This document shows, one piece after another, positions 12,735 through 21,335 of a stretch of 39,974 nucleotides of DNA. The notes beneath the pieces are model-generated. The model had not been told where the DNA came from, did not search any database, and worked only from the letters and a program-made list of their open reading frames with translations. The stretch's first letter is position 1, and every line of letters starts with the position of its first letter. The stretch is taken from the NCBI GenBank assembly GCA_028376655.1, contig JAONAZ010000001.1, forward strand, positions 104,784 to 144,757, read 5' to 3'. The translations under genes and the position numbers were made by a program. Source of the DNA: Acidimicrobiia bacterium. Lineage in GTDB: Bacteria; Actinomycetota; Acidimicrobiia; Actinomarinales; Actinomarinaceae.

Positions 12735-13121
12735 TTGAAAAATGCTGCAATTTCATTGATTTTATTAGCTTTTTTAGCTTTATTGTCTCTTGGTGCAACA
12801 GGTTCTTTAGTTACAGGGACTTCTGGAGTATTTAATAAAGTCCAAGGTGAAGTTTTTCAAGAAACTTCTAGTGAAGTTATCCTAGAAGATAATAAATTAT
12901 TCATATCTATAAACAAAAAAGAGAAAGAGAACTCAGAAAAAGCAGTTATTGATTGTTTAAATTTTTACTCTGCAAAATATCCTGAACTTACAGAGTACAC
13001 CTGTGATTTAGTAGTCAGAACAAATATTATTATTGACAATAGTTGTAATTACCTTACTGGAGTGCTGGTTAAAAAAGATTCTGAAGAGTCAATAACTTTA
13101 GATTACAACAGCAGCTGTTAG
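12735..13121 (+). CDS. Exported protein of unknown function (TTG start)
   Basis: N-terminal hydrophobic segment MKNAAISLILLAFLALLSLGATGSLV; start is TTG preceded by AGAGGT; contains several Cys. Confidence 0.6.
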   Translation: MKNAAISLILLAFLALLSLGATGSLVTGTSGVFNKVQGEVFQETSSEVILEDNKLFISINKKEKENSEKAVIDCLNFYSAKYPELTEYTCDLVVRTNIIIDNSCNYLTGVLVKKDSEESITLDYNSSC

Positions 13122-13390
13122 TCAAATAGTGAACCAAGTAGACTGTCACCTTCAACCTCTATCTCCGCAAGCGTCTCTCCAACATTAACCATTGAGCCTT
13201 CTTCGGTGTTAAGTTTTATTATTTTCCCATCATAAGGACTGTCCAGATCCATATCTACTTTATCTGTAGCGATCTCAGCTATAACATCACCTTTTTTTAC
13301 TTCATCTCCCACACTTACTTTCCAGGTTAAAAGCTCTGCTTCTGTCATTTGATCAGACATTGCAGGTAAAATAATATTTTCATTACTCAT
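13118..13390 (-). CDS. Stand-alone biotinyl/lipoyl-domain carrier protein
   Basis: Lipoyl domain IILPAMSDQMTEAELLTWKVSVGDEVKKGDVIAEIATDKVDMDLDSPYDGKI; 90 aa with no E2 catalytic domain; overlaps E1 beta by 8 nt. Confidence 0.9.
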   Translation of the reverse strand: MSNENIILPAMSDQMTEAELLTWKVSVGDEVKKGDVIAEIATDKVDMDLDSPYDGKIIKLNTEEGSMVNVGETLAEIEVEGDSLLGSLFD

Positions 13391-14375
13391 TATCGATCAT
13401 CTCCTTTATTTTTATTACAATATCCTCTTCCTGAGGAATTACTGTTGTCTCTAAATGTTTAGCGGAAGGCATGGGACTATGTAAACCTGCCAAAAGTTTT
13501 GGTGGTTTTTTCAAAGAATTAAATGCACGAGAGGAAACTACTTCTGAAATTAAAGTTGTACCGATAGAACTGCTGCCTGGTGCCTCTTGGCACATTAAAA
13601 GTTTATGAGTTTTTTCCACAGAAGTGATTACTGTTTCCGTATCGAGTGGTGAAAGTGTTAACAAGTCAATTACTTCTATAGAGTAGTCCTTAAGAGAGTC
13701 ATCTTTAACGGCATTCAAAACTGTATTTACCATATTTGAGTATGAGGCAATTGTGATATCACTTCCCTCCAGAACAACTTTTGAGTTTCCGAGTATAGAG
13801 GAATCTTTGGGTAGGGGTCCAAGTGTGACTTCAGATTTCAGTTTATAAATTAACTTATGTTCCATGAAAATTATCGGATTAGGATCAACGAATGAAGCAA
13901 GAAGCAAATCATATGCATTTTGTGGATTTGATGGGGTCACTACTTTTAAACCAGGTACGTGACAAAACCATGATTCCAGAGATTGACTATGTTGAGCGGC
14001 GGCACCCGTTCCGGCCCCACTTGCTCCTCTAACAATCATCGGAACGTTAACTGCACCCCCATACATAAAATGTAATTTTGCAGCTTGATTAACAATTGGA
14101 TCCATCGCATTAACAATGAAATCGCTAAATTGCATTTCGACAATTGGTTTTGAACCTGTAATTGCTGCACCTACAGCTAACCCAGCTATTACATCTTCTG
14201 AAATTGGTGTATCTTTTATTCTCTCTTCACCGTATTTTTCTAATAATCCATCAGTAACACCAAATGCTCCTCCATATACGCCAATATCTTCACCTGCAAT
14301 GAACGTGGTGTTGTTGCTATCAAGACACAATGAAAGTGCCTCTTTTATTGCTTGGCCAGTCGTCATTTCAGGCAT
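13383..14375 (-). CDS. 2-oxoacid/acetoin dehydrogenase-type E1 beta subunit
   Basis: GQAIKEALSLCLDSNNTTFIAGEDIGVYGGAFGVTDGLLEKYGEERIKDTPISEDVIAGLAVGAA; MVRGASGAGTGAAAQHSQSLESWFCHVPGLKVVTPS. Confidence 0.92.
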   Translation of the reverse strand: MPEMTTGQAIKEALSLCLDSNNTTFIAGEDIGVYGGAFGVTDGLLEKYGEERIKDTPISEDVIAGLAVGAAITGSKPIVEMQFSDFIVNAMDPIVNQAAKLHFMYGGAVNVPMIVRGASGAGTGAAAQHSQSLESWFCHVPGLKVVTPSNPQNAYDLLLASFVDPNPIIFMEHKLIYKLKSEVTLGPLPKDSSILGNSKVVLEGSDITIASYSNMVNTVLNAVKDDSLKDYSIEVIDLLTLSPLDTETVITSVEKTHKLLMCQEAPGSSSIGTTLISEVVSSRAFNSLKKPPKLLAGLHSPMPSAKHLETTVIPQEEDIVIKIKEMIDNE

Positions 14376-15321
14376 AAGAGTCTTCCTCCAGGTTGGTTTT
14401 AGGACTTTCAGGAGACTGAAGTGCTTTTTTTACAGAGTCTCTAATTACTTCTCTTACCTCTGATTCAATCTCTTTTAATGTCTCTATTTCTACACCTTCT
14501 TCTGTTAGCTTTCCGATAAATCGTTTTAAAGGATCTTTTTCCTCTTTCCAAAATTCAATTTCCTCTGATGTCCTATAAAGGTTACGGTCAGACTTCGAAT
14601 GCCCTCTGTATCTGTATGTCACAGATTCAATAAACATAGGTTTTCCAGAACTTTTTATCGTTTCTTTAAATTCTAAAACTGAATTGTAGACCTCTTCTAC
14701 ATTGTTTCCATCAATAGAAATACTTTTGATACCATAGGACTCGGCTCTTTGAGCTATAGATCCACCGGCAACAGCATTCTCTGATGCCATGGACATGCCA
14801 TACTGGTTATTCTCACAAACAAATAGAACAGGTAAGTCCCATAAAGATGCCAGGTTTAATGCTTCATGAAAAGATCCTTCGTTAACCGCTCCATCGCCAA
14901 AAAAACAAAGAACAATATTATCTTGTTTTTGTATCTTGAGTGATAAAGCTGCGCCGACAGAAATTGTTAAACTTCCGGCTACAATTCCATTTGCTCCTAA
15001 ATTTCCATTCGATAGATCTGCAATATGCATAGACCCGCCTCTTCCACGACAGTAGCCGTCTTCTCTTCCAAGTAATTCGGCAAACATTTTATAGGGGTCT
15101 GCACCTTTTGCTAAACAGTGACCATGTCCTCGATGCGTTGAAGTAATTAAATCTTCTCTCTCTAGAGCAAGGCAAGCACCGGTTGCCGTAGCTTCCTGGC
15201 CAATAGATAAATGCATTGTCCCGTGTAATAGACCTCTAGAGAACATTTCTTCTAAAGCTTCTTCAAATAAACGTATTAGAAGCATCATTCTATAAAGTTC
15301 TAATTTATTTTCTTTATTCAC
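14368..15321 (-). CDS. TPP-dependent E1 alpha subunit, acetoin-dehydrogenase-like
   Basis: STHRGHGHCLAKGADPYKM, GRGGSMHIADLSNGNLGANGIVAGS, TPP motif GDGAVNEGSFHEALNLASLWDLPVLFVCENN. Confidence 0.92.
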   Translation of the reverse strand: MNKENKLELYRMMLLIRLFEEALEEMFSRGLLHGTMHLSIGQEATATGACLALEREDLITSTHRGHGHCLAKGADPYKMFAELLGREDGYCRGRGGSMHIADLSNGNLGANGIVAGSLTISVGAALSLKIQKQDNIVLCFFGDGAVNEGSFHEALNLASLWDLPVLFVCENNQYGMSMASENAVAGGSIAQRAESYGIKSISIDGNNVEEVYNSVLEFKETIKSSGKPMFIESVTYRYRGHSKSDRNLYRTSEEIEFWKEEKDPLKRFIGKLTEEGVEIETLKEIESEVREVIRDSVKKALQSPESPKTNLEEDSYA

Positions 15322-15332
15322 ATGAACCTTTT

Positions 15333-16583
15333 TTAATTATTTTGTTTATTACGTAATTTATTTATTAAATTATCTGGTAACTCGATAGAGTCTCTTGGAA
15401 TTGGCTCACCTTGTTTTATTTCACCAACTACTGTTGCTCCTTCAACTAAACCAAGAGGAGCTAATCCTTCAGTTTCGGAATAAGGATAAGCAACCCCGTA
15501 AGAAGAGAAGCCTCCAATACCATCAATCTTATCTCCTGGTTTCAAATCTTTTTTTGCATGGCCTATGACTTCTGATATCCATGTTGTTGGCTGGAGTCCA
15601 GCTTCATTATTTATTATTGCCATTCCTACACTACGAGGAGCCTCAACAGAGGCAAGGTGATAGGGCCTGTAGAGAGTGTAATAAGGCCCCTCTCCCATTG
15701 AGAGATACTCCATCTCTTCTATAATTGTTGGGTTGTCAGTTGTGACAATTGAAAAAACACCTGGCGCTGGTCCGAAGGCGAAGTCAACTCTTCCTGATTC
15801 TTTTAAAACCCCTCCATCTGATTCGGGTATCAAATTTTTGTTTAGTTCTGAAACTTCACTGATAGGACCGTTCATTCCTACTTTATCCAAAGGCATTCCT
15901 ATACCATTTGATAGAGCTGTCATCTCAATCATAGTTTTACTTCCATCTACAAAGCTTGCAAGCATTTTTGGATTCATATTTTTCTGCATAGCTCTATCTT
16001 TTAAAGATTCGGGTGTAGCAGTTTGATCTAATGGATTATTCTTACCCTTCCCAATACATACCACTTCAAAGCCTATATCAACAGAGAAGTCGTATAGCTC
16101 TTTACAAGCAACAGGCTCATCACCATTTGCAACACTATAAACAATTCCTTTTTCTTTTGCTTGTTCGGCAAGGTAAAGTCCAATTGTTATATCAGTTTCA
16201 ACATTTAACATTAAAATATGCTTTCCAGCCTCTATACAACTTGAAGCAACCTCAGCACCTACCCAAGGAACACCTGTAGCTTCAAAAACAATGTCTATAG
16301 GGAGTTCTGCCAGGTCTTTTGCATTGCTTACAATTCCACCATGACCATTTGAGATGGAGGTGCTTGCATCTTTATCGTGACCAATACTTGTCATTCCAGC
16401 AAGACGTAAGGCATTTTCTGCCCTTTTTTGATCTATGTCTGCACAAGCAACTAATTCCATGCCAGGTATACGACCAATTTGCGCAGCTAACCCAGAACCC
16501 ATTTGCCCGGCACCTGCAAGTCCAATACGAACAGGTCTACCAAGTTCTTTTTGTCTCTTAATAAGTTCTTTTGTAAAATTCAT
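15333..16583 (-). CDS. COG4091-family oxidoreductase (homoserine-dehydrogenase-like, C-terminal SAF domain); family includes DRL/DXR-II
   Basis: Rossmann motif VRIGLAGAGQMGSGLAAQI; IDIVFEATGVPWVGAE; VGKGKNNPLD-like segment CIGKGKNNPLDQTATPE; FVDGSKTMIEM; C-terminal SAF-like AKKDLKPGDKIDGIGGF. Confidence 0.82.
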   Translation of the reverse strand: MNFTKELIKRQKELGRPVRIGLAGAGQMGSGLAAQIGRIPGMELVACADIDQKRAENALRLAGMTSIGHDKDASTSISNGHGGIVSNAKDLAELPIDIVFEATGVPWVGAEVASSCIEAGKHILMLNVETDITIGLYLAEQAKEKGIVYSVANGDEPVACKELYDFSVDIGFEVVCIGKGKNNPLDQTATPESLKDRAMQKNMNPKMLASFVDGSKTMIEMTALSNGIGMPLDKVGMNGPISEVSELNKNLIPESDGGVLKESGRVDFAFGPAPGVFSIVTTDNPTIIEEMEYLSMGEGPYYTLYRPYHLASVEAPRSVGMAIINNEAGLQPTTWISEVIGHAKKDLKPGDKIDGIGGFSSYGVAYPYSETEGLAPLGLVEGATVVGEIKQGEPIPRDSIELPDNLINKLRNKQNN

Positions 16584-16940
16584 TTAATTAATCTCTATCC
16601 TGTCATCTATTTTTATTTCAGGTACATTTGTATAGCTACAGCTAACATCACCTGGTAATGCTGCTTCTGTTGCTGAGTCCAACTTTAAAACAAGGTGTCC
16701 TAAATTAACAAAATTTTCATTTGCTACAGGTCCAACAGCTGTAACTATTAGTTCTTCACCAGATAAATTTATTTTTGTTCCAACCACAATTTCTCCAACT
16801 ACCTCTTTTAGTTCATGAACGACGGCTACATCTTGAAGTTCTTCAGGAGCATTATCTCCAAAAAAGACAACAATTCCCTCTTCTAAAAATAAGTGTGCTT
16901 GATCACCAATTTTTACTATTTTTGAAGAGTATACGACCAC
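16584..16940 (-). CDS. srlB: PTS glucitol/sorbitol-type EIIA
   Basis: 118 aa; small beta-rich SrlB-like protein (ILVTAVGPVANENFVNLGHLVLKLDSATEAALPGDV); directly downstream of the SrlE-like IIB domain. Confidence 0.82.
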   Translation of the reverse strand: MVVYSSKIVKIGDQAHLFLEEGIVVFFGDNAPEELQDVAVVHELKEVVGEIVVGTKINLSGEELIVTAVGPVANENFVNLGHLVLKLDSATEAALPGDVSCSYTNVPEIKIDDRIEIN

Positions 16941-17317
16941 TATATTTCAGTAATCTGCTCTTCTGATACTCCTGAAACAAAGTTTTCTTCTCTTATGAAT
17001 TGAGCTAATGGGCCAGCAGGTGAAGTATCGTGAATATCTATAGTTGGGACACCTTTCATTGGATAAACCCCAATTCTTGCAGTCCCTCCACAATCAATTA
17101 CAGCACATGCCATTGCTTTAAAACCACCTTCAGGGGATGATTTGAAGCCATCAAAAGCTTCTGCACCTGTCATGTCAGCAATTTTTTGAGCTACTGGATG
17201 AATGCCTCCACCGGTGATACAAACTACATATTTTCTCTCATCTGTAGGTTTAACCTCTAAAGGTCCTCCCCAGCCACCTCTGCCTCTTTCAATTTTTACT
17301 TTTTTATATTCTGCCAT
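16940..17317 (-). CDS. srlE: PTS glucitol/sorbitol-type EIIB (SrlE N-terminal domain as a separate protein)
   Basis: SrlE N-terminal pattern KVKIERGRGGWGGPLEVKPTDERKYVVCITGGGIHPVAQKIADMTGAEAFDGFKSS. Confidence 0.87.
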   Translation of the reverse strand: MAEYKKVKIERGRGGWGGPLEVKPTDERKYVVCITGGGIHPVAQKIADMTGAEAFDGFKSSPEGGFKAMACAVIDCGGTARIGVYPMKGVPTIDIHDTSPAGPLAQFIREENFVSGVSEEQITEI

Positions 17318-17394: not shown

Positions 17395-17919
17395 TTACAA
17401 TCCTAATGCAAACAAATAACCAACAACAACTGAAATGGGTCCAGTAATCATTCTACTTGTTAGAACGGCTGGTACACCAATCTCTACTGTTTCCGGCTCC
17501 GCCTCACCTAATGCGAGACCAACTGGAACGAAGTCACAACCAACTTGTGGGTTGATTGCAAACAATGCCGGTAGTGCCATAGAAACATCAATATTTCCAC
17601 GTCCAATCTCAGTTCCAACTAGTACACCAACTATTTGAGCTATTACGGCTCCTGGTCCTAGTAATGGAGACAAGAAAGGAATTGAACATACAATACAGAC
17701 AATCATCAAGCCAGTTAAGCTAGATGCGAATCCTTTAATTCCTTCAGCTATGAAATCGCCAACTCCTGTTGAAAGGATTAATCCAATTACACCGGCAACG
17801 AATGCCATGAATGGAATTATTGTTTGGATACATAACTGTACAGCATCACGACCCGCTTGAAATAATTTTCCAACTACTCCACCAACGGACCTACCTATTT
17901 TTTCGATCATACTTTGCAT
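17395..17919 (-). CDS. srlE: PTS glucitol/sorbitol-type EIIC2 (SrlE C-terminal domain as a separate protein)
   Basis: Membrane segments and conserved SrlE C-terminal motif NPQVGCDFVPVGLALGEAEPETVEIGVPAVLTSRMITGP. Confidence 0.87.
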   Translation of the reverse strand: MQSMIEKIGRSVGGVVGKLFQAGRDAVQLCIQTIIPFMAFVAGVIGLILSTGVGDFIAEGIKGFASSLTGLMIVCIVCSIPFLSPLLGPGAVIAQIVGVLVGTEIGRGNIDVSMALPALFAINPQVGCDFVPVGLALGEAEPETVEIGVPAVLTSRMITGPISVVVGYLFALGL

Positions 17920-18461
17920 TATTCAGCACCGGCCTTTCTTGATGACATTATTGAATAGATGATATCTGTTGTGACACCTCTAATCAAAATAACAACAAGC
18001 CCAGCAAGTAAGTATCTTACTGCTAACGGCGTTACTAATTCTGGAGCTGCAATCTCAACTCCAGCTGCGATTCCCAACCATACGAATAACTCTCCACCAT
18101 TTGCATGTGGAAAGATTCCTGTAATTGGATGAACAAAACTAACAGCAGCATCGTAAAATGCTGGTTTGTTTTTTTCTGGTAAGAATGTTCCGAATGTATA
18201 GCAAACTGGGTTTGTCAGCATAAACACAGCTACAAACGGTAGCAATGTATATCGAACCGGAACGTACATCCAGCCCTCCTGAGCAGCCCACTTGGCAAAG
18301 TTTTCAACCTTATCTTCACCAATGAATTTGACTAATGCATTTACTGCAGTCAAAAACACTACTATCAACGGGATAATACCAGTAGTCAAGCTAACAAATA
18401 CATCTGCTGATGTTCTAAAAACACCAATAAATGCATCGGCCATACTAACTAACGTGTCCAT
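17919..18461 (-). CDS. srlA: PTS glucitol/sorbitol-type EIIC1
   Basis: SrlA-like: VNALVKFIGEDKVENFAKWAAQ, YTLLPFVAVFMLTNPVCYTFGTFLPEKNKPAFYDAAVSFVHPITGIFPHANGGELFVWLGIAAG. Confidence 0.9.
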   Translation of the reverse strand: MDTLVSMADAFIGVFRTSADVFVSLTTGIIPLIVVFLTAVNALVKFIGEDKVENFAKWAAQEGWMYVPVRYTLLPFVAVFMLTNPVCYTFGTFLPEKNKPAFYDAAVSFVHPITGIFPHANGGELFVWLGIAAGVEIAAPELVTPLAVRYLLAGLVVILIRGVTTDIIYSIMSSRKAGAE

Positions 18462-18482: not shown

Positions 18483-18869
18483 CTAATTAGAAACACTCTC
18501 TGAATCTTCATTAATTTTTTTAATTAACGTGTCAGCAGCCATAGCTGCAGCATCATAAAGTGGATCCTTTCCATTAGAGTCCGTAAACTCTAATAAACTT
18601 TTATTAATCAACTCTTCAACTTGTTGTCCTTTTGCAAAAACAGTTGTTCCTTTTAGAGTGATCGCATCAACAATTATTTTTTGAGGATTTGCAGACATAG
18701 CAAGGTAAACTCTTTTTCTTCCCCATTTCGGTTGATTGGTTCCAATAGCGACAGTTAAGTTATCTCCGTGAAGTTCTTTAACTACATTCATAAAGCTGAC
18801 TGCTTGTTTTTTTCCAAGTTGCATTTGCAAAACCCACATTCCAGCAAGACCTAAAAATAATGCTCCCAT
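18483..18869 (-). CDS. gutM: GutM/SrlM-like membrane protein (glucitol operon activator family)
   Basis: Short N-terminal TM then cytoplasmic domain (MQLGKKQAVSFMNVVKELHGDNLTVAIGTNQPKWGRKRVYLAMSANPQKIIVDAITLKGTTVFAKGQQV); adjacent to srlA. True start may be ATT at 18893. Confidence 0.75.
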   Translation of the reverse strand: MGALFLGLAGMWVLQMQLGKKQAVSFMNVVKELHGDNLTVAIGTNQPKWGRKRVYLAMSANPQKIIVDAITLKGTTVFAKGQQVEELINKSLLEFTDSNGKDPLYDAAAMAADTLIKKINEDSESVSN

Positions 18870-19014: not shown

Positions 19015-19707
19015 CTATTCTTGAGTGATAATTTTTTCAAGCTCAAAGATATCTTCAATGAAAGTAACTTTCATATTTTTTGGATCTCCTGGAACAATGA
19101 CTGCTTCTCTTCCAACATATTTGGATACACATTCTGTTGTATCGACTGCTTGCCAGTTATCTATTTTTGCTAATTCATATGACTTCCATAATTCATCTGC
19201 TGGAAAAACCTGTGGGGTTTGAATTTCTACAATCGTTTCTTCTTGCCCATTCTTTGTATCTGAACTATTTTTAACTGATAAATTTTTAGAGTTGAAACCA
19301 GGTGCTGATGCTCCATTTCTTTTTGCCACATTTATTAACTCATCAAGTAAATATAAAGGCAACAATGGCCTAGCTCCATCGTGAATTAGGATTAGATCAT
19401 CTTCTGATACCTTTCCTGAATCTTTTAAATAAATGAGGCCTTGGTATTCACTTTCATGCCTTGTCTTGCCACCTACTGTTATTCCAATTAACTTCTCGGT
19501 TTCTACAAGCTCAATAACTCTATTAGTTTTTTCCCAATCCTCTTCACGAATAACAAGAAGAATTGAATCTACTAGTCCTGAGTTTTCCAAAGTTTCTAGT
19601 GGCCAGCAGAGCGCAGGTTTTCTTCCAACGGGAAAATAAACTTTGTTCTCTTCGTCTGTAAATCTATGGCTAGAACCACCAGCTAATAGGATGGCATGGG
19701 TCTTCAT
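19015..19707 (-). CDS. ispD: IspD-like cytidylyltransferase (2-C-methyl-D-erythritol 4-phosphate cytidylyltransferase family)
   Basis: HAILLAGGSSHRFTDEENKVYFPVGRKPALCWPLETLE, LILIHDGARPLLPLYLLDELI, EIQTPQVFPADELWKSYELA, TTECVSKYVGREAVIVPGDPKNMKVTFIED. Confidence 0.85.
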   Translation of the reverse strand: MKTHAILLAGGSSHRFTDEENKVYFPVGRKPALCWPLETLENSGLVDSILLVIREEDWEKTNRVIELVETEKLIGITVGGKTRHESEYQGLIYLKDSGKVSEDDLILIHDGARPLLPLYLLDELINVAKRNGASAPGFNSKNLSVKNSSDTKNGQEETIVEIQTPQVFPADELWKSYELAKIDNWQAVDTTECVSKYVGREAVIVPGDPKNMKVTFIEDIFELEKIITQE

Positions 19708-21335
19708 ATTTTTAAATCGTTTATTAAATCTTTAACTTCTTGACTGTTTTTTGTTTTAAGAATTCTAGATTTTAAATTTTCACTATCTAAAGATTTTAAT
19801 TTAATTAATTTTTCAAAAACGAAAGGAGCAGCTGAAGGAGACATACTAAACTTTCGTAATCCTAATATGTAAAGAACTAATGCTGAAACTGGATCAGAAG
19901 CCATTTCTCCACACACAGATACTTCTTTATTTTGTTCTTTGCTTACACTAAAAACATTTTCTAAAACTCTTAAAACAGCAGGATGAAGTGGATCTTGATA
20001 TTCCATTAAGTTTGGGTTCCCTCTATCTGCAGCCATAATATATTGTGTTAAATCATTCGTACCAATTGAGAAGAAATCTACATATTCTGCAAAATCTTCT
20101 ATAAGAATAGTTGAGGATGGCGTTTCAATCATGATGCCGACTTCTGGTAATTCTTTATTTAAGTTTTTAGCAATTTCTATAATTATGTTTTTACTTCTTA
20201 TGAAGTCTTCAATTGTTGAAATCATAGGGAACATAATCTTTACTCTGTTTGAGTCTCTAGACGTAAGAATTGATTCGATTTGAGATCTAAAAAGTTCCTC
20301 AATTTGTAAAGATAAACGGATACCTCTAACACCTAAAAATGGATTTTCTTCAACCGGTAAACTTAAATAATCTACTTGTTTATCTCCACCTATATCAAGA
20401 GTTCTATACGTAATTGCTCCACTAAATTTATCTTGTATTTTTTCCAATGTATCTCTTTGTTCTTCAATGGTTGGAATAGATGACCTATCTAAGTAGATAA
20501 ACTCAGATCTAAAAAGTCCAATTGAATTTAAGAAATCATGATTGAAAGACTCTATTTCTTCTCCAGAACCAACATTGATTAAAAATTCAAAATCTTGTGC
20601 TTCATATTCAGACATCGTAAAATTATTTCTAATTTCTTCTTCTTGTTTTTTACTTTTATTCATGTTTGCGATAACTTCTTTATCTGGATTTATATTTAGA
20701 TCGCCGCTCGATCCATCTAAAGCGATTAAATCATCATTCTGAATCTCTCTAATACTATCCCCAACGCCGATAACACAAGGGATGCCTAGATTTTTTGCAA
20801 CAATTACTGCATGGGAAGTTGGTCCACCATCTTTAAGAATAATACCAACTACATTTCCCATATTCATAGAGGAGGTGTCAGCAGGTGTTAAGTCATCCGC
20901 CACCAATATAGAATTTTCATTTAATTCAACAGTTACTTCTTTTTCTTGCATGGTGTTAATTAAATGTTTACCTACGGAAGTGATATCTTCAGCTCTTTGT
21001 TGAAAGTACTCATCTTCCATACTTGCAAGAATATTTGCACTGGTTTCAAAAATATTATAGACCTCTTGCACGGAGGATTCATTCTCTTCAGTAATCTGTC
21101 CTGTAATTTCTGGATCCTTAAGAATTAAAATATAAGCATCCAATACATCAGCTTCTTCATTTCTATTACTATTTTTGAAAGCTTCTATTTGTGCTTCAAA
21201 CTTTGCTGTAAGCTTTTCAGTAGCATCTTGGAATACAATTTTACTATCTGTCTTTAGGTCAATTTTATTTTGGTATACAAAGGCATTGCCAATGCAGCTA
21301 CCTATAGAGACACCTTTTCCATTAACACTTTTCAT
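19704..21335 (-). CDS. ptsI: PTS enzyme I
   Basis: Phospho-His region KDGGPTSHAVIVAKNLGIPCVIGVGD; PEP-binding GLFRSEFIYLDRSSIPTIEEQ, FLGVRGIRLSL, IGTNDLTQYIMAADRGNP, VCGEMASDP. Confidence 0.95.
   Translation of the reverse strand: MKSVNGKGVSIGSCIGNAFVYQNKIDLKTDSKIVFQDATEKLTAKFEAQIEAFKNSNRNEEADVLDAYILILKDPEITGQITEENESSVQEVYNIFETSANILASMEDEYFQQRAEDITSVGKHLINTMQEKEVTVELNENSILVADDLTPADTSSMNMGNVVGIILKDGGPTSHAVIVAKNLGIPCVIGVGDSIREIQNDDLIALDGSSGDLNINPDKEVIANMNKSKKQEEEIRNNFTMSEYEAQDFEFLINVGSGEEIESFNHDFLNSIGLFRSEFIYLDRSSIPTIEEQRDTLEKIQDKFSGAITYRTLDIGGDKQVDYLSLPVEENPFLGVRGIRLSLQIEELFRSQIESILTSRDSNRVKIMFPMISTIEDFIRSKNIIIEIAKNLNKELPEVGIMIETPSSTILIEDFAEYVDFFSIGTNDLTQYIMAADRGNPNLMEYQDPLHPAVLRVLENVFSVSKEQNKEVSVCGEMASDPVSALVLYILGLRKFSMSPSAAPFVFEKLIKLKSLDSENLKSRILKTKNSQEVKDLINDLKI

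Follow-up and report, generated by a model that had tools for sequence, protein, structure and literature searches.

Does the oxidoreductase gene at positions 15333-16583 serve isoprenoid synthesis, or does it belong to a catabolic route fed by the PTS genes beside it? An earlier note on this DNA had posed these as alternatives for a COG4091/DRL-like protein encoded within a PTS operon of the window (the whole 39,974-nt stretch analysed here). We therefore give the family of the protein, the make-up of its operon, the isoprenoid genes of the genus and the recurrence of the gene cluster in other bacteria.

A DXR-II/DRL protein in a PTS and dehydrogenase operon

The open reading frame was confirmed on the minus strand, which had been left unstated, and encodes 416 aa; the opposite (plus) strand is riddled with stops. 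Pfam searches returned DRL_cat (PF21135, E 1e-60) and, as had been suspected of the C-terminus, a SAF domain (PF08666) above cut-off, while the Rossmann-type NAD-binding domain fell slightly short (NAD_binding_3, 23.4 bits against a cut-off of 24). The segments GKGKNNP and FVDGSKTM, already singled out in the earlier note, are the two best-conserved stretches of the DRL family, and they served as patterns for scanning GTDB genomes for relatives. The protein matched Brucella DRL (3UPL/3UPY, E 5e-96) with 40% identity to 3UPL, and structural modelling, as had been proposed, gave a high-confidence prediction (pLDDT 95.9) with a TM-score of 0.95 to 3UPL, far above canonical DXR and other dehydrogenases in the same structure comparison.

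In DXR-II, Lys191, Lys193 and Thr229 are fosmidomycin/substrate contacts and Arg320 is a dimer residue, with Thr229 and Arg320 marking the divergence from the DLO families (PMC3847144). All four were present in the DRL of the genus, both in the form found in the window (form A) and in a second form (form B), and two distant homologues carried N/K/M/R and N/K/V/K at these positions. His250 and Val351 are kept in most DXR-II members (PMC3847144); form A has Asn and Ile there and form B His and Asn, and Tyr, Ile and Thr also occur at these positions elsewhere within the DRL clade. Phylogeny, which might have placed the protein well outside any DRL clade, grouped it with Brucella DRL and 96 others, apart from an outgroup of only two, long-branched rows. 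On domain content, predicted structure and residues, the window gene is a member of the DXR-II/DRL family.

The operon reads EI-IspD-GutM-SrlA-SrlE-SrlB-DRL-E1alpha-E1beta-lipoyl, with every gene on the minus strand and tightly packed. The PTS genes had been recognised before; IspD, both E1 subunits and the lipoyl protein had not, and it is these that decide the interpretation. The first gene encodes PTS enzyme I (EI, ptsI; 19704-21335; assigned by BLAST against relatives, where its position is conserved) and overlaps by 4 nt an IspD-family cytidylyltransferase, the single one of the genome (19015-19707; PF01128, E 3e-32), which scored under the TIGR00453 equivalog cut-off (132.9 vs 181.3 bits), yet resembled IspD more closely than it did ribitol-5-P cytidylyltransferase (79.5 bits). 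After 145 nt follow a GutM-family regulator (18483-18869; PF06923, E 4e-15), the glucitol-type PTS IIC SrlA (17919-18461; PF03608, E 9e-66; NF049923 above cut-off), SrlE as two separate genes, namely a C-terminal membrane half (17395-17919; NF049924 profile positions 157-329) and an N-terminal IIB half (16940-17317; PF03612, E 2e-52), and the IIA protein SrlB (16584-16940; PF03829, E 1.5e-31). The Pfam matches of IIC, IIB/IIC2, IIA and GutM were all above their cut-offs. The split of SrlE, in which the gene for the membrane half precedes that for the IIB half, is common to Chloroflexi and many Actinomycetota loci, and the protein is fused in Bacillota. SrlB and DRL abut directly (0 nt, rather than the 1 nt noted earlier). 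No sorbitol-6-phosphate dehydrogenase was recognised in the operon, DRL taking its place. Beyond the operon lies a mannitol PTS set (IIC, IIB, IIA, MtlD and HPr).

Eleven nucleotides downstream of DRL begins the alpha subunit of a TPP-dependent dehydrogenase (E1alpha, 14368-15321; PF00676, E 6e-81; HSKSD at residues 241-245), followed, each with an 8-nt overlap, by E1beta (13383-14375; PF02779/PF02780) and a stand-alone lipoyl-domain protein of 90 aa with a TDKVDMDL lipoyl-lysine motif (13118-13390; PF00364, E 6e-20). Neither this protein nor the operon contains an E2 catalytic domain. The E1 missed the PDH E1 cut-offs (TIGR03182, 354.6 vs 393.85; PRK09212, 320.3 vs 321 bits), and since the window genome encodes a PDH elsewhere, together with E2 and LipB-LipA, the operon's E1alpha/beta is not needed for pyruvate. 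Next to those PDH genes, a single 542-aa ORF seems to hold LipB and LipA as a fusion (locus L062, 2206-3834).

In the E1alpha tree, DRL-linked enzymes, although not forming one supported clade, fell with acetoin enzymes and away from the PDH of the genus. All 36 DRL-linked E1alpha sequences carry GHS[K/R]SD with either K or R; at this site acetoin enzymes read HFEGD, and PDH either HSMSD or HAGHD. This K/R is a candidate phosphate contact, as would be expected for a phosphorylated substrate. The operon's E1alpha is not inside the acetoin clade, being separate from the acetoin enzymes of loci L195 and L196 and carrying HSKSD, not HFEGD, which leaves unaffected the claim that it would work like acetoin dehydrogenase. 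The HSKSD motif was also seen in a C. difficile plasmid E1alpha that groups with DRL-linked enzymes; its locus (L192, 5995-9027) holds E1-E1-E2-E3, a SorC-like regulator and an MFS transporter, with no DRL nearby.

Isoprenoid genes across the genus

The genus was sampled through 42 genomes (~1 Mb, GC 35%; some tests on 41 or 10), mostly incomplete MAGs; absence calls hinge on profile thresholds, and split enzymes may score low. DRL was found in 33/42, including 8/8 of those at least 90% complete. Canonical DXR, for which the earlier note had suggested a search, was detected in 0/42 (DXP_redisom_C, PF08436) as against 36/37 other genomes of the class, and DXS above cut-off (TIGR00204) in 0/41. 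IspG was present in 36/41, IspF in 39/41 and IspD as one copy in 10/10 genomes tested; in the window's own genome, which is 79% complete, no IspF was detected. From MEP onward the pathway is thus general in the genus, with its first two canonical enzymes absent. With canonical dxr missing genus-wide, DRL is the only DXR candidate there, and an isoprenoid role is likely, given the single-copy IspD in the same operon.

Two other candidate sources of DXP were examined and rejected. The TIGR00204 matches inspected in the genus (at most 74 bits, cut-off 466) were PDH E1, transketolase and the E1 subunits of the operon itself, not a DXS in disguise. In RibB, the positions matching E. coli G108 and D113, mapped by offset, hold unmutated G and D, which speaks against suppressor mutations of that enzyme.

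Form A has PTS and E1; EII-GUT is present in 13/41 genomes. At form B loci IspD-DRL is kept, usually with EI, and there is neither PTS nor E1; no GUT PTS was found elsewhere in form-B genomes. PTS-less members of the genus retain IspF and IspG as well, with no DXS, DXR or operon-type E1. Forms A and B join in the DRL tree (91%), beside actinobacterial DRLs from PTS/E1/IspD clusters, and the simplest reading is that form B arose by loss of PTS and E1, leaving the isoprenoid pair IspD-DRL, a reading based on one quick tree in which the form-B branch is long.

The absence of dxr, the single-copy IspD inside the operon and the bare IspD-DRL pair of form B would all suit a DRL that works only in biosynthesis, as an MEP synthase (DXR-II), with PTS and E1 as incidental neighbours, as would an Oscillospiraceae MAG in which ispD-ispE-DRL are consecutive in a purely biosynthetic-looking setting (L111, 7797-11260). 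That explanation leaves the E1/lipoyl genes and the PTS unaccounted for, and the PTS-DRL-E1 cluster recurs across phyla, also in genomes without ispD or dxs; we regard it as quite unlikely. Less probable still is that E1alpha/beta stands in for DXS, making DXP from pyruvate and GAP, so that E1-DRL-IspD would form another route into the MEP pathway. The lack of DXS throughout the genus would fit, and a mutated PDH E1 (aceE) can supply DXP in E. coli (PMC3424233), but form-B genomes have neither DXS nor operon-type E1, the E1 is accompanied by a lipoyl protein or E2, neither of which DXS needs, and genomes lacking ispD also carry E1-DRL clusters, all of which makes this proposal very improbable.

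Recurrence of the cluster and a predicted methylerythritol module

The GTDB scan yielded 572 relatives, 80 of which were fetched for locus comparison. A cluster of DRL, glucitol-type PTS and E1alpha/E1beta/E2 was found in Chloroflexi, Bacillota, Actinomycetota, Spirochaetes and Alphaproteobacteria. When the comparison was limited to the 43 DRL loci flanked by 4.5 kb or more on each side, 22 had both glucitol PTS and E1alpha/beta, 15 had neither, five only PTS and one only E1 (Fisher p 2e-6 for co-occurrence, uncorrected for kinship). Other recurrent families, those lacking a reference match being named by reading their sequences, were SorC regulators (39 loci), E2 (30), HPr (26), EI (22), IspD (13), FGGY kinase (9) and dihydrolipoamide dehydrogenase (7). 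When plasmids were searched with E1alpha and C. difficile was set aside, 31 of the 32 top records, mostly rhizobia, carried DRL as well, by hand count nearly always within 200 bases of E1alpha. Rhizobium K1/93, for instance, has GutM-SrlA-SrlE-SrlB-PtsP-regulator-DRL-E1alpha-E1beta-E2 followed by thiamine genes, and in Priestia E1-E1-E2-E3 is accompanied by an MFS transporter, DRL and FGGY kinase.

DRL and IspD stand together in the window operon and in other actinobacterial clusters. Two Acidimicrobiia genomes with canonical DXR and DXS have SrlA/E/B-DRL-HPr-EI with divergent E1alpha-E1beta-E2 and SorC-type regulators, and carry their only IspD in this DRL cluster. A 1.6-Mb actinobacterial MAG with EI-GutM-SrlA-E-B-DRL-IspD gave no DXR or DXS match; DXS is present in a relative. 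The window operon was also seen, at 97-100% protein identity, in a GTDB record with the label 'uncultured Bacteroidetes', probably a mislabelled or contaminated bin.

Outside the genus, 19/40 cluster carriers have canonical DXR. In seven carriers, six of which have the E1, neither DXR nor IspD nor an above-cut-off DXS was seen; unless incomplete assembly accounts for this, DRL there cannot serve the MEP pathway, and its role is not isoprenoid synthesis by that route. That the cluster occurs both beside canonical dxr and in genomes without dxs, dxr and ispD supports the earlier suggestion that DRL acts on the PTS product. In Fervidicola, Thermovorax, Tissierella and Anaerosalibacter, IspD is present and DXR absent, and a dual use of DRL is possible.

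We consider it somewhat probable, from gene content and family membership, that the operon is a utilisation module for the sugar alcohol 2-C-methyl-D-erythritol (ME). The glucitol-type PTS would import ME, yielding MEP, and DRL would interconvert MEP and DXP. E1alpha/E1beta, resembling acetoin dehydrogenase, would use TPP to split DXP, an acyloin, giving glyceraldehyde 3-phosphate and acetyl-lipoyl, and the acetyl group on the lipoyl protein would pass to acetyl-CoA, probably via the E2 of the separate PDH. IspD would draw MEP to CDP-ME and on to isoprenoids, and in this genus without canonical DXS and DXR, DRL would also be the sole candidate MEP synthase. Since DRL and IspD share one metabolite, MEP, the catabolic and isoprenoid roles that had been set against each other are compatible, and the original either/or was too narrow. 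The chemistry of DXR is reversible and favours MEP formation, so the catabolic direction would need pull from E1. As for the substrate, the sorbitol PTS of Salmonella transports 2-C-methyl-D-erythritol, according to a citation of Testa 2004 in PMC3994034.

Several observations point against an ME module: Asn250 and Ile351 in form A, the missing E2 catalytic domain, the PTS-less genus members that keep IspD-DRL without DXS, and DRL modules with other partners, which could serve another polyol. In Eubacterium, class II aldolase and TIM replace E1 beside DRL and glucitol PTS (L125, 4957-6516); in Ligilactobacillus, Fsa and transketolase do so (L191, 13913-16572); and in Listeria, DRL accompanies a PTS with no other partner recognised. 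Such stand-ins would suit a module for a different polyol (a branched C5 such as apiitol, or a pentitol), with DRL yielding some ketose 5-phosphate that is not DXP, and E1 acting on this product or on pyruvate derived from it; the published annotation, too, calls the PTS sorbitol-specific (PMC7771536). Against this stand the conserved DXR-II active-site residues, the IspD-family gene inside the operon and an acetyl-forming E1/E2 that suits a methyl-ketone acyloin, not xylulose 5-phosphate, and we judge it rather unlikely.

The ME module remains our preferred reading. No description of methylerythritol catabolism or methyltetrol degradation was found in the open-access literature. More tentatively, and with considerable doubt, a widespread undescribed ME catabolism may explain the patchy and redundant distribution of DXR-II, with PTS-carrying members of this streamlined marine genus, which would have lost DXS and DXR, taking isoprenoid precursors partly or wholly from imported ME.

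Implications and comparison with known systems

Methylerythritol is a plant metabolite and a product of isoprene aerosol; an ME-catabolic role, if true, would tie its external supply to carbon use by marine and soil bacteria, and would suggest that a genus can form isoprenoids with neither DXS nor DXR. It would also provide a testable function for several DRL genes now labelled 'homoserine dehydrogenase' or 'SAF domain protein', and for the linked 'PDH' genes. DXR-II is known in bacteria without MEP enzymes, its role there not being given, and its retention beside canonical DXR or without the MEP pathway (classes C and E, Chloroflexus, Finegoldia) has been left unexplained (PMC3847144); ME catabolism would, if true, answer why it is retained.

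Compared with known DXR-II/DRL enzymes (Brucella DRL 3UPL; PMC3847144), the window protein is alike in domain architecture, fold, sequence and the Lys/Lys/Thr and dimer Arg residues, but the family is known for isoprenoid biosynthesis, whereas the window DRL sits in a PTS/E1 operon and has Asn for the usual His250. With the glucitol/sorbitol PTS the operon shares every subunit (SrlA/SrlE/SrlB) and GutM, differing in the split SrlE and in DRL instead of sorbitol-6-phosphate dehydrogenase. The E. coli aceE/ribB suppressor routes (PMC3424233) likewise supply DXP without DXS, but RibB of the window genome is unmutated at 108/113 and the window E1 is of the alpha/beta type. Acetoin dehydrogenase (AcoA/AcoB/AcoC) is the nearest reference group in the E1alpha tree and has the same TPP E1 alpha/beta with a lipoyl carrier, which would cleave an acyloin to acetyl; the window enzyme differs in its HSKSD motif in place of HFEGD, its linkage to DRL and PTS, the absence of a full E2 and a substrate predicted to be phosphorylated.
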